Shown piece by piece: positions 2,083 through 59,337 of a stretch of 64,000 nt of DNA. Numbering within the stretch: the first letter of the stretch is position 1; every line of letters begins with the position of its first letter. Source of the stretch: Cephalotus follicularis (Eukaryota > Streptophyta > Magnoliopsida > Oxalidales > Cephalotaceae). The stretch lies in contig BDDD01001826.1 in assembly GCA_001972305.1 (NCBI GenBank), forward strand, positions 13,389-77,388, written 5' to 3'. The notes under the pieces were generated by a model. That model was not told where the DNA came from, searched no databases, and saw only the letters and a program-made list of their open reading frames with translations. The translations under genes and the position numbers were made by a program.

Positions 2083-2292
2083 GAACAGTCGGGTGTTCTT
2101 GTGGACCGTCGGCTGGATTGGATGAACAGTCGACTGCCATATGAACACAGTCGACTGTCCTAGGTTGAGTAGTTGATTGGATCTATGAACCAGTCGACTG
2201 CCTGCATTCTAGTTTGAGTAGTCGACTGGCCCTTGTGATTAGTCGACCGCCAAGCTTCTCCAGTCGGCTGGTGCTCTGTAATAGTCGACTGT
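2083..2292 (+). repeat. GTCGAC palindrome cluster in LTR of A (CAGTCGACTG class)
   Basis: About ten copies or near-copies of CAGTCGACTG and CAGTCGGCTG lie here, about 15 to 35 bases apart, for example at 2130, 2150, 2193, 2219, 2257 and 2283. The cluster starts about 1.13 kb into the LTR and lies between the possible leader splice donor and acceptor. Element M carries a weaker cluster at the matching place. Function is unknown. Confidence 0.75.
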
Positions 2293-3752
2293 TTTGCCCA
2301 GAAATGTACTGTTTTCAATTGTTTTGATTCGTCTGTTCCTCGAATCAATCCGGGTCTTTTCTAAACACTGTAATGAGTCTGTTTAATGTCTCTAATGTTT
2401 CTTAGACCCTTATATGTACTGTTTTGGGTGTCTTTTAGTTTGTTGTGCTTCAAAGGGGGTTGTCTTAATCTTCTTCCGTAAGTGAATGGTAAACGCATAA
2501 GGTACGGATTTTCTGTTCCTTGGCTATCTGATATTTCGAACTGGAAACAGTTTTGCTATGCTTCTTCGTTTATGAAATCGATAATGTTTTATGATTTTGA
2601 CACGTTTCGACAATAAAGTTGGTTTGACATTTTAAATGATTCCGACTTTATACATATGATATGAAATGATACGATATGTTATGAAATGTATGTTATGATA
2701 CCGTTGTGAGCGATTTCCGAATATGTTATGTGAAAACATATTTTATGTGGTTTTAAATTGATTTCGATAAATGAATGTTTTTGAAACGATTGAATACTGA
2801 GTATTGTACCCACCTATGGAGCGTACCATAAGCACGTCGTGGGCCTGGCACGGGGACATGACACTTCCGTAGCGGTGTGATTAGTCTACGGCGTCTCTGA
2901 GTGTATGAATAAATCCCATGAGGTGGATTTATGGATCCGCTATGTATGATAAAGGCGTATGAATCGATTCTAGTTTATGTGATCTGAGGTGTGATCAGAT
3001 ATGTGGTCCGAGGTGTGATCGGATATGTGTATGTGAGAAATGACTTGTGTAGTACCTTACACTTCAATTCTAGTGGGCATGTGGAATTAGCACCTCCCTT
3101 GCCAAAATTATGTTATGTGATATGTATGTGGCTCAGTATGATTCTGTGAATTATGAAATGATGATTTGAAATGTTTCTTTAATCTTTCGAAATATATGAA
3201 ATTGGTATTTGAATATGATTAAACTGTTTTAACTGTTTAAGATTTCTGTTACGTTATTATTGAAATCTTACTGCTTTTAAATTTATCGTTTACTGTTTTA
3301 TTTCCCTTATCCGTACTGAGGTTTGCTCGGCCGCGTTTTTGTTTCCAAGCGGCAGGTTTTCAGGAGGAGCAGGGGAAAGTGTGACGAGTGATGACCACCC
3401 TATGTTTTTGGATCCCTAAGAGTGTGATCCATATGTTATGTCTAGTGGTCATAAACACTGATAATTATGTTTATATGTTTTAAATTGGAACTTGAACATG
3501 TTTAAGTATTTCCGAAAATGATTATTTGTTAAGTTTTTAATGTTTCAGTTATGATTAGACCACCATGTTTTTGGCTAATAAAGTAAAAGTTATGATTCGT
3601 TAAGTTATTGTAACGCCCGGGGTTTTCGTTAAGGTGTAATGTTGCATTTCTAATATAATGTTACACGTTGAATTAATGAGGATCGTGTTTTTCCCCTTTG
3701 GAGTGTTGAAAGTTGCAAGAAAAAGTGTGTTAGTGTGTTTTTGTGCAGGGGG

Positions 3753-3900
3753 CAGTCGACTGCCACAGGGAGGCAGCCGACTGGACTCCCCTGGTGAATG
3801 CGGCAGCTTGCTGCTGTGAGGAAGCAGCCGGCTGGTTTGAGTGTCGGCAGAAACAGTCGACTGCCAAGTCATGGCAGCCGACTGCCAGGCGTCAGACAGC
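3753..3900 (+). repeat. Palindrome block 1, 5' LTR of B (CAGTCGACTG class)
   Basis: About six copies of GGCAGTCGACTGCC or CAGCCGACTG lie 145 to 290 bases after the LTR start, upstream of the TATA-like box at 3986. Several are bounded by GGC on the left and GCC on the right, which lengthens the palindrome to 14 bases. Confidence 0.8.
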
Positions 3901-3985
3901 CACGTGCTGTCAGCCTTAAAGTGATAAAAAGTGGGAGTTTTGATAATTTTTAGGGAGAGGACAGAGAGAGGGGCCGAGTTTCCTC

Positions 3986-3996
3986 CATAAAAACAC
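3986..3996 (+). promoter_or_regulatory. TATA-like box, LTR of B
   Basis: CATAAAAACAC follows a GA-rich tract (about 3953-3975). K has GCATAAAAACG at the same relative place, also behind a purine tract, which supports a promoter role. Weak by sequence alone. Confidence 0.45.
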
Positions 3997-4418
3997 AAGC
4001 TTCCCTTCTCCAATCTCCATCCTTCTCGGTGGATTCAAGAGTGTTTGAGAGTAGAGAAAATGGAGTGAAAGTGTGTGTGTTGTGGATATACGGAGCTTGG
4101 TGTTGAACCGTGGGCTTGGAGGCCAGACCAGTGGAGGAACCGAACCAGTGGAGGCTACTGGACGGATTTGGGGGTGCAAGGACCTCGGATTCGGGACTTA
4201 AAGAGGTGGATTGTAACTCCTAACTTGGAGTTCTATGGTAGGGAAAAGCTATATTTGTGATTTAAAGTCAATTATAATGATGTTTATGAGTGAAATGCAT
4301 ATGTTACACTGTGATAAAGCATGAATGTGTGTTGTGGTGATAGTGGTTTGTGGTTTGAATGGTTTCAAGTGGATTGAACATGTGTGATTTCTGCTGTTTT
4401 TGGGCACTGCCCGTAGGG

Positions 4419-4875
4419 GCAGTCGACTTGGCAGGGAGGACAACCGACTGTCCGAGGCCAGCAGTCGACTGTTCGTGAGGAACAGCCGACTGCCCATGGA
4501 AACCAGCCGACTGTGCATTGGAGCCAGTCGACTGTTCGTTCCTGGAATTGCAGGTTGCTTCCTGTTGATTGAGTAGCCGACTGCCAGAGGAACGCAACCG
4601 ACTGTGGGTGGGGCATCCTACTGTTTTTGGTAACAGCCGACTGTCCACGTGTCACTCTACCCGGACTTGCTGAGGTGGTATGCTGGGACAAGTGGCGACA
4701 AAGGAATGTGTATGGACCAGCCGACTGCCTGGAGAGGGCAGCCAACTGCTAAGTGAGGGACCAGTCGACTGGCAAGGAGGGCAGCCGACTGTTGGTCAAG
4801 GACAGCCGACTGCCAAGGAGGGCAACCGACTGTTGGTTAAGGGCAGCCGACTGCCAAGTGAGAAATAGCCGACTG
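4419..4875 (+). repeat. Palindrome block 2, 5' LTR of B (about 18 sites)
   Basis: I count about 18 sites, on average about 26 bases apart. The right half CGACTG is nearly constant, while the left half varies among CAGT, CAGC and CAAC. Spacers often pair as GCC-AAGGAG-GGC, so neighbouring sites can also fold on each other. Confidence 0.85.
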
Positions 4876-6170
4876 GTTGGGACTGTTTTGCATTGTGATC
4901 ATATGTGTGCATCTTGTACTGTGATAAACTGTATTTCGAATTCATTATGGATGATTGTGAAACGTTTTACCCCTTTTGGAGGTGCAAACATGATTTCTAT
5001 AAATCATTACTTTATGTGAGATGTACGTTTGGAGATATATATATATATATTCTCGAAAGATTGCGAAAATGGCTTCCACAACCTTGTGAAAATGTGTTCG
5101 GTTAACTGAATGGTTTATTGAAATCATTGTTGTTTGGAAAGGTATGTTTTCCAAAAGGATTGCGAAATGGCTTTCAAGAGATTGCGAAACTGTTATACGA
5201 AATACATATTTTTGAGGCATTTGAATGTAGTTCAAATAACCGGGTTTTACGGAAAGTGTATGATTCCAAGTACTTTGATACTTGAGTTTTTGGAAAAGTA
5301 TTGTTATATATATTTTGACAAATATATATGTTGCAAGTATTTATATCTATAAATTACTTGAAATGTTTGAAGGAAAATGTATTGTTGCAAGTATTTTACG
5401 AAGCATAATTTACTTGGGAAATGGAGTGTTATATATATATTTTGACAAATATATATATATGTTGTAAGTAGTTATACTTTAAATGTTTTGGAAACGAACT
5501 GCAATATTTTGAACGAGATGTTTTCATCAAGTATTTATTTTATAAACTACTTGAGTTATTTTGTGTGTGTGCTGTGATTGCACCGTTATCGTGATTGTGT
5601 TGAGTATTGGTACTTAGCCGCCGTGATAGTATTGTTTACTGTGAATTGATTGTTGTTACTTAGCCGCCGTGCTAGTAACGTGGATGTTATTGTATTGATT
5701 GTGATTGATTGTTTCCGCTAGCGGGGTAATGTTGGTACTTAGCCGCCGTGCTAGCATCGTGAGTGTTGCCGTTAGCGGGGAAGTGTTGGTACTTGCCGCC
5801 GTGCTTGTATCGTAGTGTGTTCCGAGCGTTGTCCACGCCGTCGTGCCTGTGACGGGAACAATTGTTTGCATTGAGTGTATTGATTGTCTGCCATGACATG
5901 CTTGATTGAGTATAGTGTTGTCCTTTGGGACGTGACTGATCCTTATTGTGGAGTGATGGGTCCTTAGAGACCTGAGACATAGTTGGCTACTTGTGCCGTT
6001 GTGATATTGTGGACCGTGTAGTGTGATGATGTGTTATGGTGACATCGTGGGCTGTGACCTTGTGGTCGTGGCATATATATATATGCATCGAGATATAGTA
6101 TGTACTGCATCATTGTGCATTCATGTCATGACATGTTTTATCCTTGACCTTGGATCACTTTTATGGTTTT

Positions 6171-6200
6171 GCCGAGTGAGGACAAAGGCTAACCCCCTAC
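6171..6200 (+). promoter_or_regulatory. Conserved LTR motif of unknown role (copy in B, 5' LTR)
   Basis: The core TGAGGACAAAGGCTAACCCC is followed by CCTAC and then a pyrimidine-rich acceptor. Copies are at 11176-11205 (B 3' LTR), 17694-17723 (C), 13581-13610 (D, minus), about 22913-22950 and 29154-29190 (F, minus) and about 56737-56770 (K, minus). Each is about 350 to 460 bases before the LTR end. Confidence 0.7.
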
Positions 6201-6557
6201 AACTTCGGTGTGTTTCAGGTTGGTGCAGCCGTTGGTTACCGTTGGGCTCCAAGGATCAAAGTGAAGTTTTATGTTGTTTACTTTTGAGGAATGTTTATGG
6301 ATCATTGTAATAAATGAATGGTGGTAATAATGAATACTGTACACGCTCCATTTGAGGGTAGTTAACTGTGATGATGTTCACTGTTGTAGCATGTAGTATG
6401 GGATACATGTTACGTTATATTTCGGCTTATATTATATGCTTCCGCGAGTTGTTAATGGATATGGAAAGTTTTAATTTTATGGTATTTTGCATAAGCCGGA
6501 TTTATATGTTAATTGCCACCACTTTTATATGTTATTGGGAACCGGGGTGTGACAACA

Positions 6558-9156: not shown

Positions 9157-11559
9157 TGTAACGCCCGGGGTTTTCGTTAAGGTGTAATGTTGCATTTCTA
9201 ATATAATTTTACACGTTGAATTAATGAGGATCGTGTTTTTCCCCTTTGGAGTGTTGAAAGTTGCAAGAAAAAGTGTGTTAGTGTGTTTTTGTGCAGGGGG
9301 CAGTTGACTGCCACAAGGAGGCAACCGACTGGACTCCCCTGGTGAAGGCGGCAGCCAGCTGCTGTGAGGAAGCAGCCGGCTGGTTTGAGTGTCGGCAGAA
9401 ACAGTCGACTGCCAAGTCATGGCAGCCGACTGCNTTTAGAGTGGATTGAACATGTGTGATTTCTGCTGTTTTTGGGCACTGCCCGTAGGGGCAGTCGACT
9501 TTCCAAGGAGGACAGTCGACTGTCCAGGGAGGACAGTCGACTGTCCGAGGCCAGCAGTCCACTGTTCGTGAGGAACAACCGACTGCCCATGGATACCAGC
9601 CGACTGTGCATTGGAGCCAGTCGACTGTTCATGCCTGGAATTGCAGGTTGCTTCCTGTTGATTGAGTAGCCGACTGCCAGAGGAAGGCAGCCGACTGTGG
9701 GTGGGGCAGCCGACTATTTTGGGTAACAGGCGACTGTCCACGTGTCACTCTACCCGGACTTGCTGAGGTGGCATGCTGGGACAAGTGGCGACAAAGGAAT
9801 GTGTATGGACCAGCCGACTGCCTGGAGAGGGCAGCCGACTGTTGGTTAAGGGCAGCCGACTGCCAAGTGAGAAACAGCCGACTGGTTGAGACTGTTTTGC
9901 ATTGTGAGCATATGTGTGCATTTTGTACTATGATAAACTGTATTTCGAATTGGTTATTGATGATTGTGAAACGTTTTACCACTTTTGGAGGTGCAAACAT
10001 GATTTCTATAAATCATTACTTTATGTGAGATGTACGTTTTGAGATATATATATTCTCGAAAGATTGCGAAAATGGCTTCCACAACCTTGTGAAAATGTGT
10101 TCGGTTAACTGAATGGTTTATTGAAATCATTGTTGTTTGGAAAGGTATGTTTTCCAAAAGGATTGCGAAATGGCTTTCCAGAGATTGCGGAACTGTTATA
10201 CGAAATACGTATTTTTGAGGCATTTGAATGTAGTTCAAATAACCGGGTTTTACGGAAAGTGTATGATTCCAAGTACTTTGATACTTGAGTTTTCGGAAAA
10301 GTATTGTTATGTATATTTTGACAAATATATATGTTGCAAGTATTTATATCTATAAATTACTTGAAATGTTTGAAGGAAAATGTATTGTTGCAAGTATTTT
10401 ACGAAGCATAATTTACTTGGGAAATGGAGTGTTATATATATATTTTGACAAATATATATATATGTTGTAAGTAGTTATACTTTAAATGTTTTGGAAACGA
10501 ACTGCAATATTTTGAACGAGATGTTTTCATCAAGTATTTATTTTATAAACTACTTGAGTTATTTTGTGTGTGTGCTGTGATTGCACCGTTATCGTGATTG
10601 TGTTGAGTATTGGTACTTAGCCGCCGTGATAGTATTGTTTACTGTGAATTGATTGTTGTTACTTAGCCGCCGTGCTAGTAACGTGGATGTTATTGTATTG
10701 ATTGTGATTGATTGTTTCCGCTAGCGGGGTAATGTTGGTACTTAGCCGCCGTGCTAGCATCGTGAGTGTTGCCGTTAGCGGGGAAGTGTTGGTACTTGCC
10801 GCCGTGCTTGTATCGTAGTGTGTTCCGAGCGTTGTCCACGCCGTCGTGCCTGTGACGGGAACAATTGTTTGCATTGAGTGTATTGATTGTCTGCCATGAC
10901 ATGCTTGATTGAGTATAGTGTTGTCCTTTGGGACATGACTGATCGTTATTGTGGAGTGATGGGTCCTTAGAGACCCGAGACATAGTTGGCTACTTGTGCC
11001 GTTGTGATATTGTGGACCGTGTAGTGTGATGATGTGTTCTGGTGACATCGTGGGCTGTGACCTTGTGGTCGTGGCATATATATATATATGCATCGAGATA
11101 TAGTATGTACTGCATCATTGTGCATTCATGTCATGACATGTTTTATGCTTGACCCTGGATCACTTTTATGGTTTTGCCGAGTGAGGACAAAGGCTAACCC
11201 CCTACAACTTCGGTGTGTTTCAGGTTGGTGCAGCCATTGGTTACCGTTGGGCTCCGAGGAGCAAAGTGAAGTTTTATGTTGTTTACTTTTGAGGAATGTT
11301 TATGGATCATTGTAATAAATGAATGGTGGTAATACTGAATACTGTACATGCTCCTTTTGAGGGCAGTTAACTGTGATGATGTTTACTGTTGTAGCATGTA
11401 GTATGGGATACATGTTATGTTATATTTCGGCCTATATTATATGCTTCCGCGAGTTGTTAATGGATATGGAAAGTTGTAATTTTATGGTATTTTGCATAAG
11501 CCGGATTTATATGTTAATTGCCACCACTTTTATATGTTGTTGGGAACCGGGGTGTGACA
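9157..11559 (+). repeat. 3' LTR of element B (contains one N)
   Basis: It matches the 5' LTR from TGTAACGCC to GGTGTGACA but is 2403 bp long. At the single N (9434) about 490 bp present in the 5' LTR (about 3884-4365) are not present, which points to an assembly join and not to biology. Palindrome blocks are at 9298-9434 and 9487-9890; the latter has about 15 sites against 18 in the 5' LTR. Confidence 0.88.
9487..9890 (+). repeat. Palindrome block 2, 3' LTR of B (about 15 sites)
   Basis: Same class as the 5' LTR block but with about 15 sites. The lost sites are whole units, so the array grows and shrinks by units. Confidence 0.8.
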
Positions 11560-11881: not shown

Positions 11882-12196
11882 AGACGCCATATACAGCTAG
11901 AGTCCCTATGCATCGACTCCATGGAGAGAATGCATCGATAGCGTTTAAACCAGTGACTTACGCTCCGATGCTATGGAGAGCATGCATTGACATCATGTGT
12001 AGCTGAAGTCACTAGGCATTAATGCCATGAAGAGCATGCGTTGATGCCATGGTTGCCATGAGAAACCAGTGACTTACGCGTTGACGCTATGTTGTTTAAG
12101 CGTCGACGCTTATACGAAATGAGACAACACGCCTGTTTCATCTTATCATTGGCATTGACGCATAGATAAGATGAGAGGTATGGCGTTGACGCCATG
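11882..12196 (+). repeat. Degenerate GCGTCGACGC palindromes in copia G LTR
   Basis: Sites such as GCGTTGACGCTA and AAGCGTCGACGCTTA (about 12099-12113) and many CAT-rich relatives (GCATTGACATC, GCGTTGATGCC) lie about 100 to 430 bases upstream of the TATA box at 12311. The repeated phrase AACCAGTGACTTACGC occurs twice. Confidence 0.6.
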
Positions 12197-12310
12197 ACAG
12201 GCTAATACGCGGTATCTCACCGAACTTGAGAGAAGATGGTGACTTTTGGGAAGTGTGTTCGAGAATATAGAGATCTGACTTGGACACTTTATGAGAGAGA
12301 AGTCAAAAAC

Positions 12311-12318
12311 TATAAATA
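12311..12318 (+). promoter_or_regulatory. TATA box in the G LTR
   Basis: TATAAATA in the context AAACTATAAATAGCTAAAGG is a strong plant TATA match. It lies in the LTR part of G, so it probably set the start of the genomic RNA. Confidence 0.6.
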
Positions 12319-12892
12319 GCTAAAGGACAAGATGTCAAAAAAAAAAAGCCGAACACACTAGACTCTTTCTCTTTCTGCTTCTAGCTTACACGTTGATGCC
12401 ATATGCCTAGGCGTCAAGGCCAAATCGTCTGGTTCGAATTGCAGCCATTTTCAACCCTCCTGTCATGCCGCAAAGTTCGTTATACGTGGAGATAACTTGT
12501 ACACTGCATCTTATCTTTACATAAAATGATTTAGTGTAGGTTAAACACTTGGCTTACATCTTCCTTATCCGTGGCTTGAGGAGGCACTTTGGAGTTATTG
12601 TATTCAAAGGGTTGAGGGAGCATCACTTGAAGGAAGGAGTCTTCACCCCTGGTAAGAATCTTGTTCTTGTGGCCGTGGTAGCGGGTTGTAGCTTAGGTTA
12701 GATGTAACGCCCGTAATTTCCATGTGTTGTAATTTCACAATGTAAATGTACTTTAATTGTGGAATTAATAAAAAGATGGATTTTCCGAATTTGATGATGT
12801 TTTCCCAACTCTGATGATGTAGAAATTGGAGTCCAATTGTTAGAGAAATGTCAAAGGTGTAATTCAGTTAAACGGCACAATTTTAGGGTTAA

Positions 12893-12996
12893 AGCGCTGA
12901 CGCCTGGACTTGGGGCGTCGACGCTCAAGCCGTTAAAACGTGTGTTTAAATGCAACACATAAGCGCCGCCGCCTGCATGTGAACGTCGACGCTTTG
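12893..12996 (+). repeat. Palindrome block 1 of LTR C (GCGTCGACGC class)
   Basis: Four sites, among them GGCGTCGACGCTC and GAACGTCGACGCTTTGC, lie about 190 to 290 bases after the LTR start and upstream of the TATA box at 16185. Confidence 0.7.
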
Positions 12997-14573
12997 CGGC
13001 GTGTTCTGCATACTCATAACAGCAGATGGATATGTCACAGGGAGGTGTTTCCTTGTCACTTATCAAGCATCTTAGCAGGTGTTTAAGAACGTGGCAATGC
13101 ATGCCTTTGTTGCCAGACATACATGCAACAACAAGGCATGGGACAGAGGGATAATCCCTCAGTGCATGGTCTGTGGAGAGAGAGAGAAGGACACCTGTTG
13201 CACCTGGTCTGCATGAAATGGGAGGAGTTAATCTGGTGGGTTTTTGTCACACCCCGTTTTCCAATCACGTTAGACAAGCATATGTGGTGATATCAGTAAT
13301 TAAATATATATGTATTCCAGCATTCATTCAACACTTCGTAAACAATATGCGGAAGCATTCGAAAGCCGGAATATAAATACAAGTCGTCCGCACGCATCCC
13401 ATACTACGTGCGGGAACAAGTCAAGTAATTATCCTTACATAAGGAAATACAACAAAAACAAGGTATGAACCATTCAATACAAATTAAAGTACAACATCAT
13501 AAATAACAACCTTAAATCAAAAGTAGAAGCTCTCCAAGCTTCAGCAGCGATCTCCAAACGTCTTCGCTTAATCTGAAATTGTAGGGGTTAGCCGTTGTCC
13601 TCACTTGGCTAAGTAGGAAGATAATGTATGCTAAGGAGTATATGGATGCAACATGTATGACAGTTTATATCAAAATAACATTTGAATGTGCCAATATATA
13701 AGCAAACATGCCAAGTGGCCATAAACAATACATATGCAAGAATACCGCACAAGGGTACAATCAATTCGTCCGCATTTGGGTGTCACAGGTCGCTAACTCC
13801 TAGCACCAACTGTGCACCACCTACCTATCACCCTACACTCCGAAGATGATAGATCAGGTAACATTTACTACCGGCGTTGGCGGGTAGTTTAACAATAAGA
13901 TCTGCAATGCAGACACATTTGGGTGATACTCTGGCCAACTCCTGGCACCCAGGATCACTTCCGTAGTCAGTGACATCCTCCATCACTCGGCTACGGCAAT
14001 AAGCATGGACAAACAATTCAAGCATTTCAATAATAATATTACATATATCGATAATATGCAATATAAAGGTTGTTTTCTTTACAAACATATAACAATTCAT
14101 TTATCGTACATCTCATATGAGGAAAACGACTTCAATTCAATAGTGGTTTCCAGTTTGGGAAACAAAACAGTAGGTACCTCTCATACGAGAAAAATCAGTA
14201 GTTCATTTGGCAATAATCATTCATTTGAAAATGATAGTTGATATCATAATTTGGGTACATAGCCCATAGTTGGTTTCAATTATTGAAATACAAGTGGTGT
14301 TGGTGTTAAATGATACAAAAACAGTATATACTAATATGACAGTAGCATATTCAGTAACAATAATCAAGCAGTAGCAATTCAAGAATTCACAAGAATAGCA
14401 TTTCAAAGTCATTCATATGCAACTCTCACAAGGAGTGCGTACGTTGTTTAGTTTTGGAATGTAATTGTATATGAGGCCAGGATTGACTGTTCTAGTCATC
14501 CATATGAAGGCCAAGTCGATTACATTCAAAATTGAGGCCTTAACAGGACTTATATCAGTAATTTGGCCTAGAA

Positions 14574-14690
14574 CAGTCGACTGCTCTCAGGAACAGTCGG
14601 CTGTTTTGGTTGAGTAGTCGAATGATCTCTCTTGACAGTCGACTGGATGCATTGAGTAGTCGACTTTCATGAAGAACAGTCGACTGCTTC
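14574..14690 (-). repeat. Palindrome block 2 of LTR D (CAGTCGACTG class)
   Basis: Six sites, including CAGTCGACTG at 14575 and 14679 and CAGTCGGCTG near 14603, lie inside the predicted leader intron of D. Confidence 0.75.
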
Positions 14691-15737
14691 TGCCCAGAAA
14701 TGCAGGTAGTAGCAGTTTGTGATTTTCAATCTCTAATACAAATCCAATCAAACATGCAACAATGCAGAAAAGTAAACATACATGTCATGCATGATCATAT
14801 GTTCCAAAACATAGCGTTACCCCTACCTTAAAACGCTATCCCGAAATCAATGGAGCTTGATTTCTCTCTTTGAGTTCCAAGCCTTTTTCACCAACAATCT
14901 TTCAATCCAGCAGAAACAATCTATGTATGCATGTTTATGAACACATGCATTAGCACCAGAAGGTTTCAGTAAATACTTATAACAACTACAATTCCAACAG
15001 TGGCTAGTCCCTAGTTCATTGAGTCTTAAACATCACTCTTATCATTCCCTCTGAACTCTTTGTCAAATACCTTTCAATTTCGGGTTCTTTGATCTTAATG
15101 TTGACAGAAAATGTATGTGTATACTTAGGGGAATCAGTCATTATAACAACTGACTAACAACAACAATAATCAAAATTAGAGTTATTTAACTCTCTAAGCT
15201 TCATATCCATTTCTCTCTTCTTTCCCTTACCATCTTAAATCAATTCTAAAGTTGTTAAACTTAACCATTGATAGGAGATATTAACATTCCTAAATGCACT
15301 ACAATCACAGCAGCAGTAAGTTCGAATTTAGAAACTTACCAAGAGTCCAAAGCTTCAATCCACCTTCTTTGAGCTCTCTCAATCCTCCAATGCAAGCTTC
15401 CAATAATCTCCAGCAACTCTCCTCGATATTCAGTGTTTCTAACACTCATTCTCAGCTCATGCACAGCTGATATAGGGGTCTGGAGCTTCAGAATTCGCCA
15501 GGCTCCATTACTCAACTCTCTCATTTCCTTCTCTCCCTCACATGCATCCTCTTTATCACCCTTCTCACTTCTATTTTGCAGGTTGCAGGTCTGCAACTTG
15601 CAGATGGAATAGAGGGCATGCAAGCATGCCTTTTTGCATGCTCTGGCAGCTCCTGTCTCGTGTGACACCTGCCCACCATGCAATCTCCTCTTTGTTCAGT
15701 CTAACAGGCATGCACATACACCTGTTCTGTACCGATC

Positions 15738-15915
15738 CCGTCGACTGTCTTCAAATGGCAGTCGACTGTCCACTACACGCATCAGGCAGTCGACTGCTCC
15801 CCTGTGACAGTCGGCTGTCTTGCCTGATTTTGGTTATCTTAAGTTTGATTTTCACCAAATCGGCTGTTCCTTCATAAGCCAGGCAGTCGACTGTTACCCT
15901 ATGACAGTCGGCTGT
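15738..15915 (-). repeat. Palindrome block 1 of LTR D (CAGTCGACTG class)
   Basis: Six sites lie about 170 to 350 bases from the LTR start. A 70 base phrase with GACAGTCGGCTGTCTTGCC occurs twice (about 15806 and 15902), so the block grew by local duplication. Confidence 0.75.
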
Positions 15916-16184
15916 CTTGCCTGATTTCGGTTATCTTAAGTTTGATTTTCACCAAATTGCATCTCCATTCATCCCAAGTAATTACCAATCACAAAAATTA
16001 TTATAATTGGACATTAAATTCAAATGAGTGCACATTTTATTAATCAATATTACAATGCACACGAATTGAATTTGCGGCTATTACAGTTTTGGCAGAAGGG
16101 AACAAAAATGTTCTGCATAAAATGCCTACTCATCTCACCCATCCCATCTGTTACAGAGAGCTACAGGGTAAATAGCACTGTGAG

Positions 16185-16193: not shown

Positions 16194-16363
16194 AGAGCAA
16201 GAGAACTTGAGAGAGGAAACAACCACCATTGTTGAGCAAAAAGGGGAGCTTGCACACCAACTGCTAGGATGAACCAGGGAGTTTCCAAGCCATACCTGGG
16301 GATTCAAGTGACCTGTTGAATACTAAAAGAGGTGGACTTTCGGCTTCTAACTTGAGGCCAGAG

Positions 16364-17730
16364 GTAGGGGAAGCCATAATTGTAAATTGTGTTCAAAATT
16401 TGGTGTTTGTCCAGTGATGTTTATGCATGAATTTCATGGTTTGATGATTCGTATTTAGTCACTGAAATGATTCTACCATGTACTGGGTGTGTCACATGAT
16501 ATTGCATAGCCGTTTTCTGTGCTTTATACCTATTAGAATACATGTTATATGCATGGAAATGCCATTGTTTAGCCATGTCGTGAGGTAGAAGACGACCCCT
16601 GCTTGAAACCGTCGACGCCTAAGTAATGACCGTCAACTCTTAGTACTGTGAACTGCGTTTTATATGTTGAAATGCATTTAAACATCGACGTCTAAAGGAG
16701 GAGATATCGAAGCCCAGACACTGAAAGTGCTGACGCTAAGGGACTAAACAGCGCCGCCTAAGGCACATAAGCGTCGACGCCTGAGGAATAAACGCCGACG
16801 CTTTAAAGTCCTGTTTGGACAGTTTTTACGGTTTTGGTGCCCGACGATCCTGTTTTCTCTTAGGATGCATTAGAGCATCTGTATACATTGCATATGCATT
16901 ACTTACTGCCTGTTCTTGACTGTCCATGGATTGATTATGATTTCTAAGTATCGTTACTTTAGAAATGCCTATATGAGTTGGAACTATTATGCTAAAAACG
17001 AAAATATAAGATGAGTGTTATTATATTTTTGAACATGTTGAGAAAGCAATTTCCGCTTACTGAAACTGTTTAAAAGTATTTCTACTACTGAATATTTATA
17101 TTTCAAATGTTTATAACCATCGAAAACATTTTGAAATGAACTGAGTGTTGCCGATCTAAACGATCACCACTGTACTAATACTACACTGTTTACTGTTTAA
17201 TTCATTTTTTGCTCTGTGAATTGCTATGTGGTTGTGCTTGAGCCACTGGTTGCATGGCAGAGGCTGCCAGCGCCGGCTAGTGGTAGGGTTGACCTAGGGG
17301 TCAGGAGTATGGCTGGGTAACTCACTGTACTGTACTATTGCCTCGCTCGGATGCCTAGAGTAGGGACCGGAGTGGGAGTGTAGCTTGGGGCCAGGAGTTG
17401 GCGGCGTTACACATACTGCCTAACTGTTGTGGTTCTGTGTGGACATACTGTACTGCCTGTTGGTCCTTTTCGGACATTACTGTGACTGTGGATGTGATCC
17501 TGGCCGGATCACTACTGTACTGTTCCTGCATACATATTTTTTCTTATATATGTACCCACTGTTATTTCACTGTACTGTTAAATATATATATTTCTCATAT
17601 ATATATATAAACTGGTTTTCCTGCACTGCATCATTTATGCATACATTACATGACATGCATCTAATGTTGATCCCAAGCTACTTTTATGACTTAGCCGAGT
17701 GAGGACAAAGGCTAACCCCCTACTTTACAG
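16364..17730 (+). other. Predicted leader intron of LTR C
   Basis: Donor GAG/GTAGGGG at 16363/16364. The conserved motif is at 17694-17723 and the acceptor TACTTTACAG ends at 17730. Palindrome block 2 (16607-16803) lies in its first fifth. Predicted only. Confidence 0.45.
16607..16803 (+). repeat. Palindrome block 2 of LTR C (GCGTCGACGC class)
   Basis: About eight sites such as ACCGTCGACGCCTAAG, AAGCGTCGACGCCTGAG and AACGCCGACGCTTTA. The class is the same as in block 1 of this LTR. Confidence 0.75.
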
Positions 17731-31042: not shown

Positions 31043-31045
<3 letters not shown>

Positions 31046-36850: not shown

Positions 36851-36887
36851 ATGGAATTTGGCTAAGTGATGAGAAGGAAAACTGTCT

Positions 36888-41253: not shown

Positions 41254-41699
41254 AAAAGGTCAGTTGGCACAACACTTTCACGAGTTTTTGAAACCAATAA
41301 GCTTACGGGTCCAAATTTCTTGGAGTGGCAGCACAACCTGCACTTAGTACTCATGAGCATGACGCTTTCTCATGTCATGACTGAGAGCGCCCCCAAATTG
41401 GGAGCCAACCCATCGAAAGAGCAAAAGGCCAAGCGGGCCAAATGGTTAGATGAAGAGGAGCAAGCTCGTTGCCAAGCGATTTCGGGAATGGTCCCATAAT
41501 TGCAAAGACAGCACGAGAAACCTTAAACCCTATGATCCATACTTCTCCCTCTTTAGGAGTTATATGGATCCCGATCGAGAACCGAGCGGTTTAATGTACT
41601 GACCCGAATTTCCATTAAAGATATTAATTATGGAAAGATGATTGCTATTGTGTAATTGACAAATATTTCAAGGGACCCGTAGTATGACCCTCACACTGG

Positions 41700-41845
41700 C
41701 GATGCTTACGAGAAAGCGTCAGTGCTTTGGAGGCAACCGGCGACGCTATAATTGTAAACGTTGACACATTGAAGTCAAGTGTGTTAGTTGACTTGCACGA
41801 GACCTGTAAGCGGCGACGCTTGGAGAAAAGCGCTGATGCTTTGTT
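41700..41845 (+). repeat. Degenerate palindrome block of LTR I (GCGTCGACGC class)
   Basis: Sites such as AAGCGTCAGTGCTTTGG, AACGTTGACACATTG and AGCGGCGACGCTTGG are more decayed than those of H. The block lies about 250 to 390 bases upstream of the TATA box. Confidence 0.6.
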
Positions 41846-42018
41846 CGGCAGACTAGTTGCCCAAATCTGGCTTTTGTCCTTTTGTGGGTTAATTTTTATT
41901 AATTATGGACACGTGGCAGGCCAGGGGAGAAGAATTTGAGACACTATCAGATGTTATAATAAGTGTCTCCACTAGATTGGATTGAATTTAGGCACATGGG
42001 CTATTTTGGAGAGATGAC

Positions 42019-42022
<4 letters not shown>

Positions 42023-42056
<34 letters not shown>
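42023..42056 (+). repeat. GA microsatellite in LTR I
   Basis: A GA run of about 34 bases, ending about 30 bases upstream of the TATA box at 42087. Confidence 0.9.
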
Positions 42057-42058
<2 letters not shown>

Positions 42059-44111
42059 CTTACTCTCCAAGCCAACCAGTTCGGCCTATTTATAAGTGTA
42101 GTTCACCTAAGAAGAGTGTAGTGGTTGCTGAGATTGAATAGGAGAATCCATCTAGAGAAGAAATAAGGGAATTCTAAAGCAAAGTAAGGAAATTCTATAC
42201 CCATTTTCTCCAAAGTAATCCCCTGTTTTACTTCCAGTTTTACAGCAGATTGTTTTATTGATATCTTGCTCAATTCTTGATGAATTTTTGAATGGTTTAA
42301 TGTTTTGGAAACTTCAAGATGTCTTCTTGAACTGTTATGTTTTATGATTCTAGAAATTATATCATATTGTTGATGAGAATCCATGTTCCATTTTACTACT
42401 CATGCCCTATTTTCAAAGGGAACCAGCCACTTTAAAAATTCATAGTAGATTCAATTCTTAACCAAATGTTATAAACTTAAGCTTTCTGTAATTTTTGAGA
42501 TGTATACTTCAATTTCAATGTTTTAAGTTTTCTCAGAAAATGATTACTTCTGTATGAAATGTTAATTTTAGAAATGCTATGCAAAACTATTTATGAATGC
42601 TTTGAGTTATGTACTCAAAATGATGAGAAATGTTTATGAATTGCGAAAGAATGATGTTTAAGAATGCTTTGAGCTGATCACTTAAAGTATCAAGGAAATG
42701 TTTTATGAAATGATGAATGAACCACCCCTGGATTGCGATCCAAGGGAAATGGAGCGAGATGCTCAATATTAATGGAGCGAGATGCTCACGGACATGCATG
42801 TGATGTAAGGATAGTAATCGGGTGGTGCACAATGCCCCGGTGAAGCGGTGAAAAGGGTTCATCAAGGTTTTTATGACTTTCATGTTTACGAAATGACCTA
42901 GTTATGAGTTTAACTAGAAAAGTGATATGTTTTTATGAAATTCTTTAGTCATATATGTTGACTAGAAAAAGGTTACGAAAAAATGTGTTTACAGTAAAAA
43001 TATCTTACTGAGCTATTTTGAGCTCATTCTTTTCGATGTTGGTTTTCAAATAAAATGTTTTCAGGAAAGAATTAAGAAGAGAATTCGAGCTTTAGAGGGA
43101 GCTCTTAAGAAGGAGTTTTTGTGAAAGAAATGCTATGCAATAGTGTTTGCATAAATGTTTTGATATGTAATAAGAACGATGTTTTTCCGCTGTATTATAT
43201 GTTTATGTAAAAGGATGATCCTGTGCAAATGTATAAGAATGATATGGTTGTGATACCTTTAGATAAGATGAAAATGTATAAAGTTTGAATTTAAGATTTT
43301 GTATTATGTTGCAAGACATGAGTTTATGATGTAATGTACGTTTAGAGAAGAGCATCAAAGGAGGTAACGGTCCACCCCCACGTAACGTAACCGATCCTCG
43401 AAGTTCGCTTAGAGCTATTAGCGGACTCGGGTCGGGGGCGTTACATTTAACTTATCCTGTTAGCACTTCTGTACGAAGTTGGCCGAGGAATCTTCAGTTC
43501 ACGGTCATGGATTGAAGATGATTGATCTTATTGAGCAGTGGGCTCAGTTAGATCTCACCATGGAGAATGATTTCTACATTGACCTGGTGCATTCATCTCT
43601 CCCTCAATCATTCTCCCAGTTCATCACAAATTTCCACATGAACAAGGTGGATACTAATCTATCTGAACTTCTGGAAATGCTTCGTACCGCCGAAGCCGAC
43701 ATGGACCATGGGAGGTCCAAGTCGAATATGATGCTTCTTCCTTCTACTTCTTCCCGGACAGCTCCAAGAGGGGGCGGATCGAGAGGATCCAATTCCAAGG
43801 GCAAGGCGCCCATGAAACCCAAAGTGAAGACAAAGAAAGGGAATAGACCAGTTGCGTCGGCGGGGCCAGTGGTTGGGGGAGCCATCCTTGATACAATCCG
43901 ACAACTTCAGGATGATGATTGTTGCTTTTATTGTGGAAAGCACGGTCATTGGAGATCACAGTACAATGAGTTCCAAAAGTCCAAATTAGGAGGTGCGTCA
44001 GGGTCAGGTACTTTCATGATTGAGCTTTATCTAGCTACTAATGTTAGTTCAACTTGGATTTTGGATTCAGGTTATGGAACTAATATTTGTAACTCTTTGT
44101 AGGGGCTAAGA

Positions 44112-45363: not shown

Positions 45364-47328
45364 TGTAACACCCCCGATCGGTGGGAGTCGTCATGGGACA
45401 TATAACGTAACATAACATAACATAACAGCATATAAAATTCATCTTTATTGAAACGTGATGGTCTAAAAACATAAACTGATAACATAACTGAAACAAATCA
45501 TAATCCAAAACTTAAACATAAACTGAAACTGATAACTAAACATAGTTCTGAAAACTTAAACATAAACCAATGTCATAAACACAAACTATTATATGTTCAT
45601 AAAACAGGCCTACTACAGCCATATAATAGCATAAACATGGTGGGATCAACTCATAGAATCCATAAGGGAGTCACTCTCATCAAACATTGCCTCGATGCTC
45701 CTGATAACCTGCTGCATGGAAAACAAAACATGGTTGAGCAAACCTCAGTACGAATATAGAATGTAAAACCAGTAAACGATAATTTAAAAGCGGTAAGATT
45801 TCAAAGTTACTTCAAAACAGAAATCTTAAGCAGTAAAATAGTTTAAACATTCTTTGAAATTGCCCTCGGCAAAACGTATAAGTCATAACCATAGCTTGGA
45901 AAACATAAAACATACCTTTCACAACCACATGTTCCATAACTGAGTATCATAACATATCACATATCAGAAACACATAGTAGCAAGGGACTCGCGTCATCCA
46001 CATTGCCAATAGAATTGAAGTGTACGGCACTACACAAACAATTATATCACATAATATAAAACTAGGATCGATCCATAGGCCTCTATCACAAATCCTATCC
46101 ACGGATATCACAGAGAGACACCGTAAACAAATCACACCTTTACAGAAATTGTCATGTCCCCATGACAGGCCTACGACATGCTTATGGTACGCCCCTTAGG
46201 AGGGTACAAACTCAGTATGTCACAATTTCGAAAACATTGATTTTATCATAATCGATTTTAAAACACATAAAGGTTTTCCAAAACATATTCATAAATCGTT
46301 ATCAAACTATATCATTTCACATAACACATACTTTCATAATCGGAAAATCATCCTACTTATTTTCACAATAAAAGACAATTTCATAACATTTCATAAACAT
46401 ATCGGAACCGAAGTATAAAGCCAGAAATATTCATTTTCATAAAATATTAAACTGACTTCATTTCTAAAACATATACAAATACAGATCATACCGGAGTTCA
46501 TAAAATCGACAGAATCGTGTCACACCCCGTTTAAGAGAAAACGACATATAAGCAGTAAAGGCAATTAACACATAAATACAGCTCATGTAAAAACCATAAA
46601 ATTTAAACTTTTAACCAGCTGTCAGTTGCGGAAGCATTAAAAATCCATAAGATGTAAAACCTGTAGCGTGCATCCCATACTACACGCTACCCCAAACAAC
46701 CCAACATTGTTAATCGCCCACAAAACGGAGCGTGATCACAGTACAAGTTTAAATCCCATCATCAATNCACTCCCACTCCGGTCCCTACTCCAGGCAACCG
46801 AGCGAGGCAACAGTACAGTGAATTACCCAGCCATACTCCTGGCCCCTAGGTCAACCCTACCACTGGCCGGCGCTGGCAACCTCCGCCATGCAACTAGTGG
46901 CTCAAGCACAAACACATATCAATTCACAGAGCAAACAGTGAATCCAAGCAGTAACAGTACAGTAAACAGGACAGTAGTGATCGTTTAGATCCACAACTGG
47001 CAGGTTGTTTCCAAAATGTTTTTCAAAAGTAACAACATTGGAAATATTGCATTTTCAGTAGAAAATACTTTTAACCAGTTTCAGTGGTGGAAATCGTTTT
47101 CCAAAGATGTTTGAAAATACGATATCAATATTCATTTGTACTCAATATAGTAGTTTCAAGTTACATATGCATTTCTAAAGTAACAACACATTAGAAATCA
47201 TAATCCGAGTACAATCAGTACAAACAGGCAGTACATAGTACATATGCAATGCATACAAATGCTCAAATGCATCCTAGCAGGAATCGGGATCGTTTCGCAT
47301 CGTTTTAGGCAAACAACAGTCCAACCAG

Positions 47329-47585
47329 TCGGCTGGAATCCTTGCCAGTCGACTGTTCTGGGTCGAGCAGTATTAGTAGTCGGCTGGTTCCTTCTACCAG
47401 TCGACTGTCCATTAGGCAGTCGGCTGTTGTCCTTCAACAGTCGACTGTTACAGTACACCCATACGAGAACATTCCCAGATTACCATTTTCTGGGCAGTAC
47501 GAAGTATGAACAGTCGACTGCTTTCCATTGGCAGTCGACTGGTCTCATTGAGTAGTCGACTGTCTTCCTTTGACAGTAGGCTGCT
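47329..47585 (-). repeat. Palindrome block 2, 3' LTR of K
   Basis: About eleven CAGTCGACTG and CAGTCGGCTG sites in near-alternation, about 20 to 30 bases apart with one larger gap. Confidence 0.8.
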
Positions 47586-48399
47586 CTACGAACCAGTGGC
47601 ATGCAAATCGATCTAACTACTCCAACGGATCATGGTAAGCAGATAACTTAAGCTCAGGGATAGGGATACAACTACAGATTGTCATATCATCCATATAACA
47701 GTTCATCCAACATTCATTTCATCATGCAAGCCAATGCCATAAAAGGTTCAACATGCATGCACAATAATCACATTTGATTCTCAGTAGGCAGGCATAGCAG
47801 TTGAAAATAGTAGCAACCACAGTCTAAAATCAGTAGCTACAACTCACAAAACCAGGCATTTCGAATCATGGAACATGCAGTACGTTTAAACTCAAAATGC
47901 CATTACAACTTCCCCAAGCTTTGATTCCAAGTTAGGAATCTGTAAGTCCACCCTTTGCGTTCCAATCAGTGACGTTCTGAGCTCCCCAGAAGCTCCAACT
48001 CCAAGCCCAGCAGCTCCAAGAACAGCCCAACAGCTCCAACTCGAGCTCCAAGCTTCAATAATGGTAAAAAACACTCCTTTTCCCTCTTTTCTTTGTGTCT
48101 TTCTATACTATTTTCTCTGGTTCTCTAACTTTTCAGTACTAGTACGAGAGAGGTGAGTGAAGACGTTTTTATGCAGAGTCTTTTCTCCCTTTCTCCCTTC
48201 ACATGGCACCAAAACCACATTCCCTCATTCACATGCATGCACACACTCACAGGTCTGATTTCTCTGCCCCATGAAGTTTTACATGATGCACAGGTGTCCT
48301 CGCCTTCCATCCTTTCGGCTGCATGAAGCACAAATGGCCTCCACTTCCAATGTCAGTTGTAACATGTGATTTCTGTCACATGCAACAAACAGAGCATGA

Positions 48400-48556
48400 T
48401 CCAGTCGGCTGCCTTTCCTTGGCAGTCGGCTGTTCGCCTGGTAGTCTGTTGCCAAGTGTCACGACAGTTGGCCAGTCGACTGGTTCATCCCACCAGTCGA
48501 CTGCCTCCACACGCAGTCAGCCAGTCGACTGGTCTCCCATACCAGTCGACTGCCTC
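48400..48556 (-). repeat. Palindrome block 1, 3' LTR of K
   Basis: About seven CAGTCGACTG-type sites 170 to 330 bases from the LTR start. Confidence 0.8.
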
Positions 48557-56341: not shown

Positions 56342-56729
56342 CTCTTGTCACACCCAGTTTAAGAGAAAAAGACATATAAGCAGTAAAGGCAATTCACACA
56401 TAAATACAGCTCATGTAAAAACCATAAAATTTAAACTTTTAACCAGCTGTCAGTTACGGAAGATTGAAAAATCCATAAGCTGTAAAACCCGTAGCGTGCA
56501 TCCCATACTACAAGCTACCCCAAACAACCCAACATTGTTAATCGCCCACAAAACGGAGCGTGATCACAGTACAAGTTTAAATCCCATCATAAATTAAATT
56601 CATAAGAACGGTACATCAGAACTCCTTTAACAACTTAGTTTATTACAGAACATGAGAATGAGTAAAACTGAGAACAATACAATAACTTGTTATTCGGCCA
56701 TGCTAGTCCTACAGGTCCACTGCATCAAT

Positions 56730-58034
56730 CTGTAAAGTAGGGGGTTAGCCTTTGTCCTCACTTGCCTAAGTCATAAAAGCGGTTTGGGAATTAAAATAAA
56801 TGCATGTCATGATATGGGATGTCCACATAGGACCACAACAACAGGCAGTATGTGTAACGCCGCCAACTCCTAGCCTCACGCTACACTCCCACTCCGGTCC
56901 CTACTCCAGGCAACCGAGCGAGGCAACAGTACAGTGAGTTACCCAGCCATACTCCTGGCCCCTAGGTCAACCCTACCACTAGCCGGCGCTGGCAACCTCC
57001 GCCATGCAACTAGTGGCTCAAGCACAAACACATATCAATTCACAGAGCAAACAGTGAATCCAAGCAGTAATAGTACAGTAAACAGGACAGTAGTGATCGT
57101 TTAGATCCACAACTGGCAGGTTGTTTCCAAAATGTTTTTCAATAGTAACAACATTGGAGATATTGCATTTTCAGTAGAAAATAATTTTAACCAGTTTCAG
57201 TGGTGGAAATCGTTTTCCAAAGATGTTTGAAAATACGATATCAATATTCATTTGTACTCAATACAGTATTTTCAAGTTACATATGCATTTCTAAAGTAAC
57301 AACACATTAGAAATCATAATTCGAGTACAATCAGTACAAACAGGAAGTAAATAGTACATATGCAATGCATACAAATGCTCAAATGCATCCTAGCGGGAAT
57401 CGGGATCGTTTCGCATCATTTTAGGCAAACAGCAGTCCAACCAGTCGGCTGGAACCCTTACCAGTCGACTGTTCTGGGTCGAGCAGTACCAGTAGTCGGC
57501 TGGTTCCTTCTACCAGTCGACTGTCCGTTAGGTAGTCGGCTGTTGTCCTTCAACAGTCAACTGTTACAGTACACCCATACGAGAACATTCCCAGATTACC
57601 ATTTTCTGGGCAATACGAAGTATGAATAGTCGACTGCTTTCTATTGGCAGTCGACTGGTCTCATTGAGCAGTCGACTGTCTTCCTTCGACAGTCGGCTGC
57701 TCTGCGAACCAGTGGCATGCAAATCGATCTAACTACTCCAACGGATCACGGTAAGCAGATAACTTAAGCTCAGGGATAGGGACACAACTACAAATTGTCA
57801 TATCATCCATATAACAGTTCATCCAACATTTATTTAATCATGCAAGCCAATGCCATATAAGGTTCAACATGCATGCACAATAATCACATTTGATTCTCAG
57901 TAGGCAGGCATAGCAGTTGAAAACAGTAGCAACCACATTCTAAAATCAGTAGCTACAACTCACAAAACCAGGCATTTCGAATCATGGAACATGCAGTAAG
58001 TTTAAACTCAAAATGCCATTACAACTTCCCCTAC
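56730..58034 (-). other. Predicted leader intron of the K LTR
   Basis: Donor at 58035/58034, acceptor CTTTACAG/ATTGATGCAG at 56730. The same acceptor wording is seen in C (17721-17740). Contains palindrome block 2. Predicted only. Confidence 0.45.
57435..57700 (-). repeat. Palindrome block 2, 5' LTR of K
   Basis: About eleven sites, aligned with 47329-47585. CAGTCGGCTG and CAGTCGACTG often alternate. Confidence 0.82.
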
Positions 58035-58514
58035 CTTTGATTCCATGTTAGGAATCTGTAAGTCCACCCTTTGCGTTCCAATCAGTGACGTTCTGAGCTC
58101 CCCACAAGCTCCAACTCCAAGCCCAGCAGCTCCAAGAACAGCCCAACAGCTCCAACTCGAGCTCCAAGCTTCAACAATGGTAAAAACATTTTTTTCCCTC
58201 TCTTCTTTGTGTCTTTCTCAACTGTTTTCTCTGGTTCTCTAACTTTTCAGTACTAGTACGAGAGAGGTGACTGAAGACGTTTTTATGCAGAGTCTTTTCT
58301 CCCTTCCTCCCTTCACATGGCACCAAAACCACATTCCCTCATTCACTTGCATGCACACACTCACAGGTCTGATTTCTTTGCCCCATGAAGTTTTGCATGA
58401 TGCCCAGGTGTCCTCTCCTTCAATCCTTTCAGCTGCATGAAGCACAGATGGCCTCCGCTTCCAATGTCAGTTGTAACATGTGATTTTTGTCACATGCAAC
58501 AAACAGAGCATGAT

Positions 58515-58670
58515 CCAGTCGGCTGCCTTTCCCTGGCAGTCGGCTGTTCGCCTAGTAGTCTGTTGCCAAGTGTCATGACAGTTGGCCAGTCGACTGGTTC
58601 ATCCCACCAGTCGACTGCCTTCACACGCAGTCAGCCAGTCAGCTGGTCTCCCATACCAGTCGAGTGCCTC
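58515..58670 (-). repeat. Palindrome block 1, 5' LTR of K
   Basis: About seven sites 185 to 340 bases from the LTR start, upstream of the TATA-like box. Confidence 0.8.
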
Positions 58671-59150
58671 CAGTGTACATACCAAGTAATCACACTTCCA
58701 AGTGTAAAATTGATTAAAAACAACATTATCATAGTTTGGGAAACATCATCAAATTCGGAAAAATCCATCACTTTATTAATTTCACAAATAAAATACATTT
58801 ATATCGTGAAATTTTATTTGTGAAATTACAATACATGAAAATTACGGGCGTTACAAATCGTATTCATAAAACTGATTTTATTTCGAATAAATCATATGTC
58901 CAAGAAGAGAATATACGTACCTTATGCGATCACATATAGGCTTACGAATAACCGATAATTTAAAAGTCCCACGTAGCACAATAATCTATACAATATGAAA
59001 ACATTCATATAAGGGTCTGAAAAATCATTGTGGGCATAAAACAAATTCATAACGGTGCTTAAAGCAGACCCGGATTCATCGGAAGAATAAACAGATAAAA
59101 GAATATGAAAACAGAAAGTTACAGGACAATCCAGGCGACCTTAGCAGAGC

Positions 59151-59337
59151 TCCAGTCGACTATACAAAGCATGGCAGCCAACTGTATCACATGGACTAGC
59201 TGACTACTCAACCAGGATAGCAACCAGTAGACTGAGACAGGGGGTCCAATCGACTATGCAAGACAAAACAGTCGACTGGTTCATAAGGCAATCGACTACT
59301 CAAGGAAAAACAGTCGATTGTTCATATAGGCAGCCGA
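59151..59337 (-). repeat. Palindrome cluster in LTR of M (CAGTCGACTG class)
   Basis: About eight decayed sites such as CCAGTCGACTATAC, AACAGTCGACTGG (59268) and CAATCGACTAC, about 1.1 to 1.27 kb into the LTR, as in A. Confidence 0.65.

Follow-up and report, generated by a model that had tools for sequence, protein, structure and literature searches.

Arrays of GTCGAC palindromes in chromovirus long terminal repeats of Cephalotus follicularis as candidate binding sites for a host factor

A single stretch of 64 kb from Cephalotus follicularis (contig BDDD01001826.1; hereafter the window, meaning all the DNA analysed) raises the question of why the long terminal repeats (LTRs) of its nested retrotransposons are crowded with palindromes built on the core GTCGAC. 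This word occurred 72 times in the window, compared with a mean of 6.1 in 30 dinucleotide shuffles, and its ratio of observed to shuffled counts was the highest among all 64 six-base palindromes in the window. Runs of four GTCGAC words within 300 bp were observed 17 times and in none of the 30 shuffles. The LTRs, 12 in number and 30,176 bp in length, held 68 of the 72 copies, and four were located in the other 33,824 bp. The clustering in LTRs, which had been put forward in a prediction made from the sequence alone (the original prediction), was confirmed within the window and exceeds that in shuffled sequence. The arrays are probably cis-regulatory sites for a host DNA-binding factor that drives the LTR promoters of one group of Ty3/gypsy chromoviruses, a reading drawn from the arrangement of the sites.

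The LTRs were delimited by self-comparison, by their ends, and by target-site duplications (TSDs). They bear letters of our own list, which need not correspond to those of the original prediction. The set comprises A and M (one family, opposite orientation), the pairs B5/C3, G3/H5, and K3/L5, and the solo LTRs D, E, I, and J, located as follows.

956..3603 (+), main part of LTR A, which resumes at 11565-11648 past the nested B/C element
3609..6554 (+), LTR B5, the 5' LTR of the B/C element, TSD GTTAT
9157..11559 (+), LTR C3, the 3' LTR of the B/C element
12703..13244 (+), first part of solo LTR D, interrupted by E and resuming at 16091-18111, TSD TTAGA
13245..16085 (-), solo LTR E, TSD GTTTT
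22489..24752 (-), LTR G3, the 3' LTR of the G/H element, lacking its initial ~683 bp
28733..31671 (-), LTR H5, the 5' LTR of the G/H element, TSD CCATA
36654..38856 (+), solo LTR I
41595..43445 (+), solo LTR J, a relative of I with 2 recognisable sites, TSD TTTAA
46518..48727 (-), LTR K3, the 3' LTR of the K element, TSD AATCG
56346..58855 (-), LTR L5, the 5' LTR of the K element, followed by the primer-binding site TGGTATCAGAGC at 56330-56341
58861..60422 (-), first part of LTR M, which resumes at 46513-45364 past the nested K element

The LTR starts next to pol place A on the plus strand and M on the minus strand. The LTRs start mostly with TGTAACGCCC or a variant and end mostly with GGGGTGTGACA or a variant; the start of G3 is missing, and H5 begins with TTTAACGCCC. 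Because the LTRs share both ends and align in one order, best at the start and the end, they are not unrelated, and their earlier description as such was not upheld. C3 lacks ~477 bp of B5, including the promoter-like box described below, at an N near 9434, and K3 lacks ~290 bp of L5, coinciding with the N at 46767. Each of the two N bases of the window thus coincides with a stretch of several hundred bases that is present in only one LTR of a pair, and these positions may be assembly gaps rather than deletions.

All 17 open reading frames (ORFs) of at least 150 amino acids were searched against Pfam, and 12 gave matches while five gave none. The matches within the site-bearing B/C, G/H, K, and M elements were to Ty3-type gag, protease, reverse transcriptase, RNase H, integrase, and chromodomain; other nested elements of the window gave copia-type matches. 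The two Chromo matches fell just below the Pfam cut-off of 25.1 bits; the integrase ORF 60478-61989 ends in one of 24.2 bits, and the K ORF 48777-49235 has one of 24.4 bits as its sole match. By their coding content, the site-bearing LTRs are assigned to Ty3/gypsy chromoviruses. We take the lineage to be Tekay/Del from the LTR length, the LTR ends, and the primer-binding site, rather than from a tree; the primer-binding site of L5 is presumably of the tRNA-Met type.

Each site is a 10-bp palindrome of one of two classes, CAGTCGACTG (class a) and GCGTCGACGC (class b), both fully palindromic and having the GTCGAC core in common. The perfect 10-mers CAGTCGACTG and GCGTCGACGC occurred 34 and 8 times in the window, respectively. 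When up to one mismatch was allowed, 97 sites were found in the LTRs and three outside (12078, 12100, and 12183), and LTR DNA shuffled 40 times yielded a mean of 0.5. With up to two mismatches, there were 145 sites in the 12 LTRs and 18 outside; since the shuffles averaged 10.3, about 10 of the 145 may be due to chance. All 97 sites with up to one mismatch kept to one class per LTR, in agreement with the claim that both blocks of an LTR use the same class.

Most statistics were calculated on eight LTRs (C3, G3, J, and L5 omitted) so that LTR pairs were not counted twice. This set contains 96 sites with up to two mismatches, 68 of class a and 28 of class b; two of the 96, in D and M, are weak, off-class, and outside the blocks. 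In-class sites at this threshold numbered at least eight in 8 of the 12 LTRs (B5, C3, K3, L5, H5, E, A, and G3), seven each in M, D, and I, and two in J. The observed/expected ratio of CpG in the blocks was 1.36-1.60 for class b (D, H, and I) and 0.55-0.79 for class a (A, M, B, E, and K). Complementary flanks within a site, which would extend the palindrome beyond the 10-mer, were not in excess (k 1-4; smallest p 0.14 pooled and 0.15 for class b).

The original prediction also described two blocks in some of the LTRs. Two blocks of one class were found in 7 of the 12 LTRs (B5, C3, D, E, H5, K3, and L5), whereas I has block 1 only, A and M have block 2 only, and J has two weak sites; in G3, block 1 is absent along with the missing first ~683 bp. 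The predicted offsets were recovered in most cases. Block 1 lies from 145 to ~356 bp after the LTR start (to 567 in I) and block 2 at 0.81-1.65 kb, except in C3 (336-728), where ~477 bp are missing relative to B5. Outside the 12 LTRs, sites with up to one mismatch occur only at 12078-12183, within the cluster given last in the list, in which site counts allow up to two mismatches.

2086..2291 (+), A block 2, class a, 9 sites
3753..3884 (+), B5 block 1, class a, 5 sites
4420..4875 (+), B5 block 2, class a, 17 sites
9301..9884 (+), C3 blocks 1 and 2, class a, 20 sites
12894..12992 (+), D block 1, class b, 4 sites
16609..16801 (+), D block 2, class b, 3 sites
15738..15914 (-), E block 1, class a, 6 sites
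14574..14686 (-), E block 2, class a, 6 sites
23808..24293 (-), G3 downstream blocks, class b, 10 sites
31316..31465 (-), H5 block 1, class b, 5 sites
30018..30494 (-), H5 downstream blocks, class b, 8 sites in two groups
36912..37220 (+), I block 1, class b, 7 sites, all imperfect
48402..48552 (-), K3 block 1, class a, 6 sites
47326..47583 (-), K3 block 2, class a, 10 sites
58516..58666 (-), L5 block 1, class a, 6 sites
57442..57699 (-), L5 block 2, class a, 10 sites
59153..59320 (-), M block 2, class a, 7 sites
11910..12420 (no strand), class-b-like cluster outside the 12 LTRs, 7 sites around the TATA box CTATAAATAG at 12310-12319

Between the blocks, a CATAAAA-like box is predicted in B, D, K, and L and a CATAAGA box in H. 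Block 1 precedes this box, as had been proposed for a TATA-like box. The predicted boxes and splice-site-like sequences are listed below, with a solidus marking the putative splice point.

58278..58289 (-), promoter-like box TGCATAAAAACG of L, between the blocks
48164..48175 (-), counterpart of this box in K
16114..16126 (+), counterpart in D
3985..3996 (+), counterpart in B
30988..30998 (-), promoter-like box in H, reading TGCATAAGAGC
58025..58038 (-), conserved 5' splice-site-like sequence AAAG/GTAGGGGAAG in L
16360..16373 (+), its counterpart in D
30739..30752 (-), its counterpart in H
24503..24516 (-), its counterpart in G
4235..4248 (+), its counterpart in B
56730..56750 (-), conserved CTAAC (branch-point-like) and TTTACAG (acceptor-like) close to the end of the LTR in L
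17710..17730 (+), their counterpart in D
6187..6218 (+), their counterpart in B
11192..11223 (+), their counterpart in C
13573..13593 (-), their counterpart in E
29146..29166 (-), their counterpart in H, with TTTCAT replacing TTTCAG

The donor-like sequence lies ~250 bp past the box (246-251 bp in B, D, H, and L) and reads (A or G)AG/GTAGGGGAA; B has ATG/GTAGGGAAA, and K3 has AAAGCTTGGGG there. Other kinds of donor-like sequence are present at comparable places in E, I, J, and A, and a pattern search found none at a comparable place in M. Near the LTR end, CTAAC followed by TTT(A/C)CAG was found in B, C, D, E, and L, while the branch motif is changed in G3 and the corresponding stretch of K3 falls in the N gap. 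Block 1 is therefore described here as lying upstream of a likely promoter, and block 2, as read from this conservation, as lying within a putative leader intron. An intron within a chromovirus LTR leader was not reported among the literature matches listed (titles and abstract starts).

The spacing of the sites was regular. Among adjacent sites up to 120 bp apart in the 12 LTRs (n = 120), 58 distances were exactly 21 bp and 82 were within 19-23 bp; in the eight-LTR set, 54 of 78 were within 19-23 bp. A distance of 21 bp from site to site corresponds to a 10-bp core and an 11-bp spacer. In the 36 unit pairs exactly 21 bp apart (eight LTRs), the identity was 86% for cores, which is partly by construction because cores were picked at up to two mismatches, and 29% for spacers. 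The spacer identity was 28% between LTRs and 31% within, compared with 25% expected from composition. Spacers near chance identity whose length is nevertheless kept argue against recent tandem duplication, and the arrays appear to be old, with core and spacing kept, rather than fresh tandem copies. The cores contain CG by definition. In the spacers of seven of the eight LTRs, the observed/expected ratio of CpG was 0-0.46, whereas the remaining sequence of these LTRs gave 0.52-0.85; H was the exception (0.70 compared with 0.69).

Conservation of the cores did not extend to dead copies. Changes between the LTRs of one insertion, in cores compared with the rest, were 13/200 and 46/2179, 17/110 and 182/2118, and 8/160 and 76/2047, where the core differences of B5/C3 perhaps partly reflect misaligned array units. 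At CG positions of the three LTR pairs, the changes were about equal (17/128 and 60/363). Within LTR pairs, then, the cores diverge no more slowly than the remaining sequence, so the sites are not kept in dead copies, and we infer that selection on active lineages alone preserves them.

A dimeric DNA-binding factor would account for the palindromic form of the sites and their two symmetric classes, as well as for their fixed spacing and their placement. In the proposed mechanism, a sequence-specific host protein, probably a dimer, would contact both half-sites of each palindrome (CGACTG or CGACGC, with the common core GTCGAC), and numerous copies would sit next to one another at intervals of about two helical turns. 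It would bind upstream of the LTR promoter at block 1 and also downstream, in the putative leader intron, at block 2, and binding would raise the transcription of the element rather than repress it. Each family would have one of the two site classes, each class being recognised by its own member or variant of the factor, and an exchange of the LTR interior between families could alter the class. Among the three explanations offered in the original prediction, a DNA-binding factor with a family-specific preference is the best supported, by the spacing, the near-random spacers, the class purity, and the position around a promoter-like box.

The DREB/CBF (AP2) proteins recognise sites with an RCCGAC-type core, and R[CT]CGAC is present on a strand in 77 of the 96 sites. 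In addition, 29 of the 48 sites without GTCGAC hold R[CT]CGAC, compared with 16-51% in a crude null. DREB/CBF was considered as a possible binder on this suggestion but was not adopted; a negative result for GTCGAC has been reported (PMC5209670; statements on cited papers here and below refer to the available portion of each source).

Several observations weigh against a host factor of this kind. The negative result just mentioned concerns Arabidopsis CBF3, for which a lack of recruitment to two GTCGAC elements was reported as data not shown (PMC5209670), and no known factor for these sites was found. The evidence comes from one window of one genome, in which I has no block 2 and A and M have no block 1. 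The two classes differ symmetrically at the outer bases (CA..TG and GC..GC), but this symmetry is partly circular, as the search used two palindromic consensuses; a permutation test of positions 1/10 and 2/9 was significant with the classes pooled only. The halves of the palindrome are also not equally constrained. In B, E, and K, position 4 is C in 25 sites and position 7 is G in one; position 1 varies in 11 of the 27 class-b sites of D, H, and I and position 10 in none; and in A and M position 1 varies in six sites and position 10 in none. The left half varied more than the right in B, E, and K (32 vs 9, p 0.0004) and in D, H, and I (27 vs 12, p 0.02), where the p values assume independent sites and independence is not full; in A and M the variation was equal (11 vs 11). 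Given this unequal constraint, a simple symmetric dimer cannot account for everything. The site-to-site distances that differ from 21 bp are out of phase with multiples of 10.5 bp.

Two rules were examined and rejected. The variant CAGCCGACTG was found on the sense strand in B, E, and K (25 vs 1), but the rule that it always lies there failed in A and M (1 vs 4). General helical phasing was rejected because the 24 other distances in the eight LTRs have a period of ~11 bp with a phase that misses zero, and some of them recur by homology.

A change of class between families is suggested by the solo LTR D, which has a mosaic look, with K-like ends and class-b blocks. Its identity to L5 was 88-91% over the first ~105 bp and 63-98% after ~1320, but 32-64% between, where the blocks are located. 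At block 1, D is closer to H (59-74%) than to L (44-52%), and the same holds for the second half of block 2 (58-59% and 32-39%, respectively), whereas the first part of block 2 is closer to L. D may thus represent an old exchange of the LTR interior in which both blocks moved together, a reading made uncertain by the low identity. Concerted copying, as originally offered, may stand in the form of such an exchange, which D suggests; it is implausible that the 10-bp cores were copied while the 11-bp spacers between them were not. A broader and tentative possibility, to which we give a rather small chance, is a fast-evolving recognition code, in which each of the two classes, placed both before and after the promoter, would have its own co-evolving trans factor (possibly anti-silencing), with one set of sites in the leader intron and an LTR module swapped between families. 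If so, groups of elements would share or escape a common regulator through the swapped module.

The palindromes might instead act at the RNA level, by pairing in the element RNA (as hairpins of neighbours, between block 2 near the 5' end and block 1 near the 3' end, or in dimerisation) or by feeding small RNAs, which we consider unlikely. Folding was stabler than in dinucleotide shuffles (z < -2) in 13 of 16 block stretches in sense and 15 of 16 in antisense, but such stability is expected of any palindrome array; the gain over shuffles was larger in antisense for 13 of the 16. Palindrome motifs in the LTRs of three maize Copia families are described as hotspots of small-RNA mapping (PMC5311732), and with the classes pooled a weak excess of complementary bases was detected in the flanks of neighbouring sites, at two of the four positions compared (uncorrected p 0.011 and 0.016). 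However, no core position compensated between neighbours in either class (20 tests; 49 and 11 pairs; smallest p 0.14, with low power as the cores vary little), and the commonest variant CAGCCGACTG, which has C for T at position 4 and accounts for 25 sites in B, E, and K, would give C.A mismatches in sense RNA. The location of block 1 upstream of the promoter-like box also speaks against this reading. RNA folding, the remaining explanation of the original prediction, is disfavoured by the broken sense pairing and the lack of compensation. It is likewise quite unlikely that the elements encode an anti-silencing protein of the VANC kind, which would bind the motif arrays of its own family and remove DNA methylation, the classes reflecting co-evolution. 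VANC targets are short motif arrays in non-coding parts including introns and differ between related families (PMC5735166), and families with homologous LTRs differ in site class here; the quoted VANC motifs, however, are not palindromic (PMC5735166). No VANC-like binder domain was found in the 17 ORFs of at least 150 amino acids (12 with gag/pol/chromodomain-type matches and five without any), which come from truncated or nested elements, so that an extra gene could be missing.

A role in host silencing, with the sites docking a repressor or methylation readers rather than serving element expression, seems improbable. Intact cores are dense in symmetric methylation contexts (CG in each, CHG positions in class a), yet active lineages would be expected to lose silencing sites, and the sites recur in the families seen; moreover, their loss from dead copies proceeds at roughly the usual pace. 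That the arrays are a functionless by-product of tandem duplication of a 21-bp unit is very improbable. In several blocks Tandem Repeats Finder detected a period close to 21 bp, and it also detected a duplication of 97 bp at 15783-15972, but the spacers are near chance identity while core and spacing are kept, and the sites occupy equivalent positions even in families between which the LTR interiors can scarcely be aligned. The depletion of spacer CpG in seven of eight LTRs is a further point against neutral duplication.

Some other features of the elements were observed. In the B/C element, 6581-7340 and 7468-8227 form a tandem duplication (97% identical) that covers the start of the gag ORF and the preceding sequence, and there is no pol ORF of at least 150 amino acids between its LTRs. 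The window positions 1-1205 match 61376-60192 in inverted orientation (~79% identical), these being the ends of the related chromoviruses A and M. Compared with the G/H element, the K element has ~3.5 kb extra at 49609-53087, between the integrase-end part and the RT/RNase H part (RT, reverse transcriptase), and the borders of this stretch bear LTR-end-like sequences.

The original prediction knew of no named element class with such arrays, but the RM boxes of Sireviruses (Ty1/copia) are a named precedent (PMC2829016). RM boxes are high-copy palindromic LTR motifs that start 200-400 bp in, just upstream of the TATA box; their sequence differs by element, their flanks have diverged, and their clusters form CpG islands (Bousios et al. 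2010, PMC2829016). They were described as Sirevirus-specific, in comparison with classic Ty1/copia elements, and a database comparison pointed its authors mainly to stress-factor sites, for which reporter tests were called for (PMC2829016). The Vitis RM CGGTCGACCG has the GTCGAC core and the 10-bp length of the chromovirus sites (PMC2829016). As with RM boxes, block 1 clusters before a predicted TATA-like box (B, D, K, and L; CATAAGA in H), and 8 of the 12 LTRs have at least eight palindrome copies. In contrast, the CGG-CCG signature of 12 of 13 Sirevirus RMs (PMC2829016) is not present in the consensus CAGTCGACTG or GCGTCGACGC, and Ty3 chromovirus carriers, the 21-bp spacing, a second block past the promoter-like box, and two classes among homologous LTRs are all unlike RM boxes. 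In our best reading, the chromovirus arrays are a counterpart of the RM boxes, while the spacing, the double placement, and the two classes look new. A 2016 Genome Res study (via PMC5311732) likewise described a rapidly evolving, palindrome-rich regulatory part of the LTR, but linked the palindromes to small-RNA mapping and dealt with another superfamily than Ty3.

The VANC targets of VANDAL transposons (PMC5735166) are similar in forming motif arrays, both intronic and upstream, whose motif differs between related families, but VANDALs are DNA transposons with an element-encoded binder. By analogy, VANC targets appear to be the best functional parallel for the change of motif between families. 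The LTR of human T-cell leukemia virus type 1 (HTLV-1) has few repeats, with a bZIP/CREB site and a viral co-activator, and no sequence relation is claimed. Its 21-bp repeats (PMC509288, PMC506788) resemble the present proposal in that the LTR promoter is driven through a repeated U3 site bound by a dimeric host factor. Families of crapaud in Podospora (PMC10787394) vary in the 5' part of the LTR with the rest more alike, and the Retrolyc1/Tnt1 subfamilies vary in U3 in the same manner, as seen for D compared with K; palindrome arrays are not described in the available parts of these sources. Among the literature matches listed (titles and abstract starts), no report of palindrome arrays in chromovirus LTRs was found, which is weak evidence of novelty as most subscription papers were not covered. 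The site strings themselves occur in 643 papers, and those listed are, judging by title, mainly on cell biology and cloning. Viral contigs gave no match to one pol fragment or to a three-site pattern; this pattern was present at 31 loci of a bacterial/archaeal collection.

Chromoviruses make up much of many plant genomes, and to our knowledge what switches them on is largely unknown. A short, regular, and testable LTR code in two versions would point to the controlling factor, and it would allow one to ask whether such unrelated groups of retrotransposons as the Sireviruses and the chromoviruses arrived at one mode of control by convergence.

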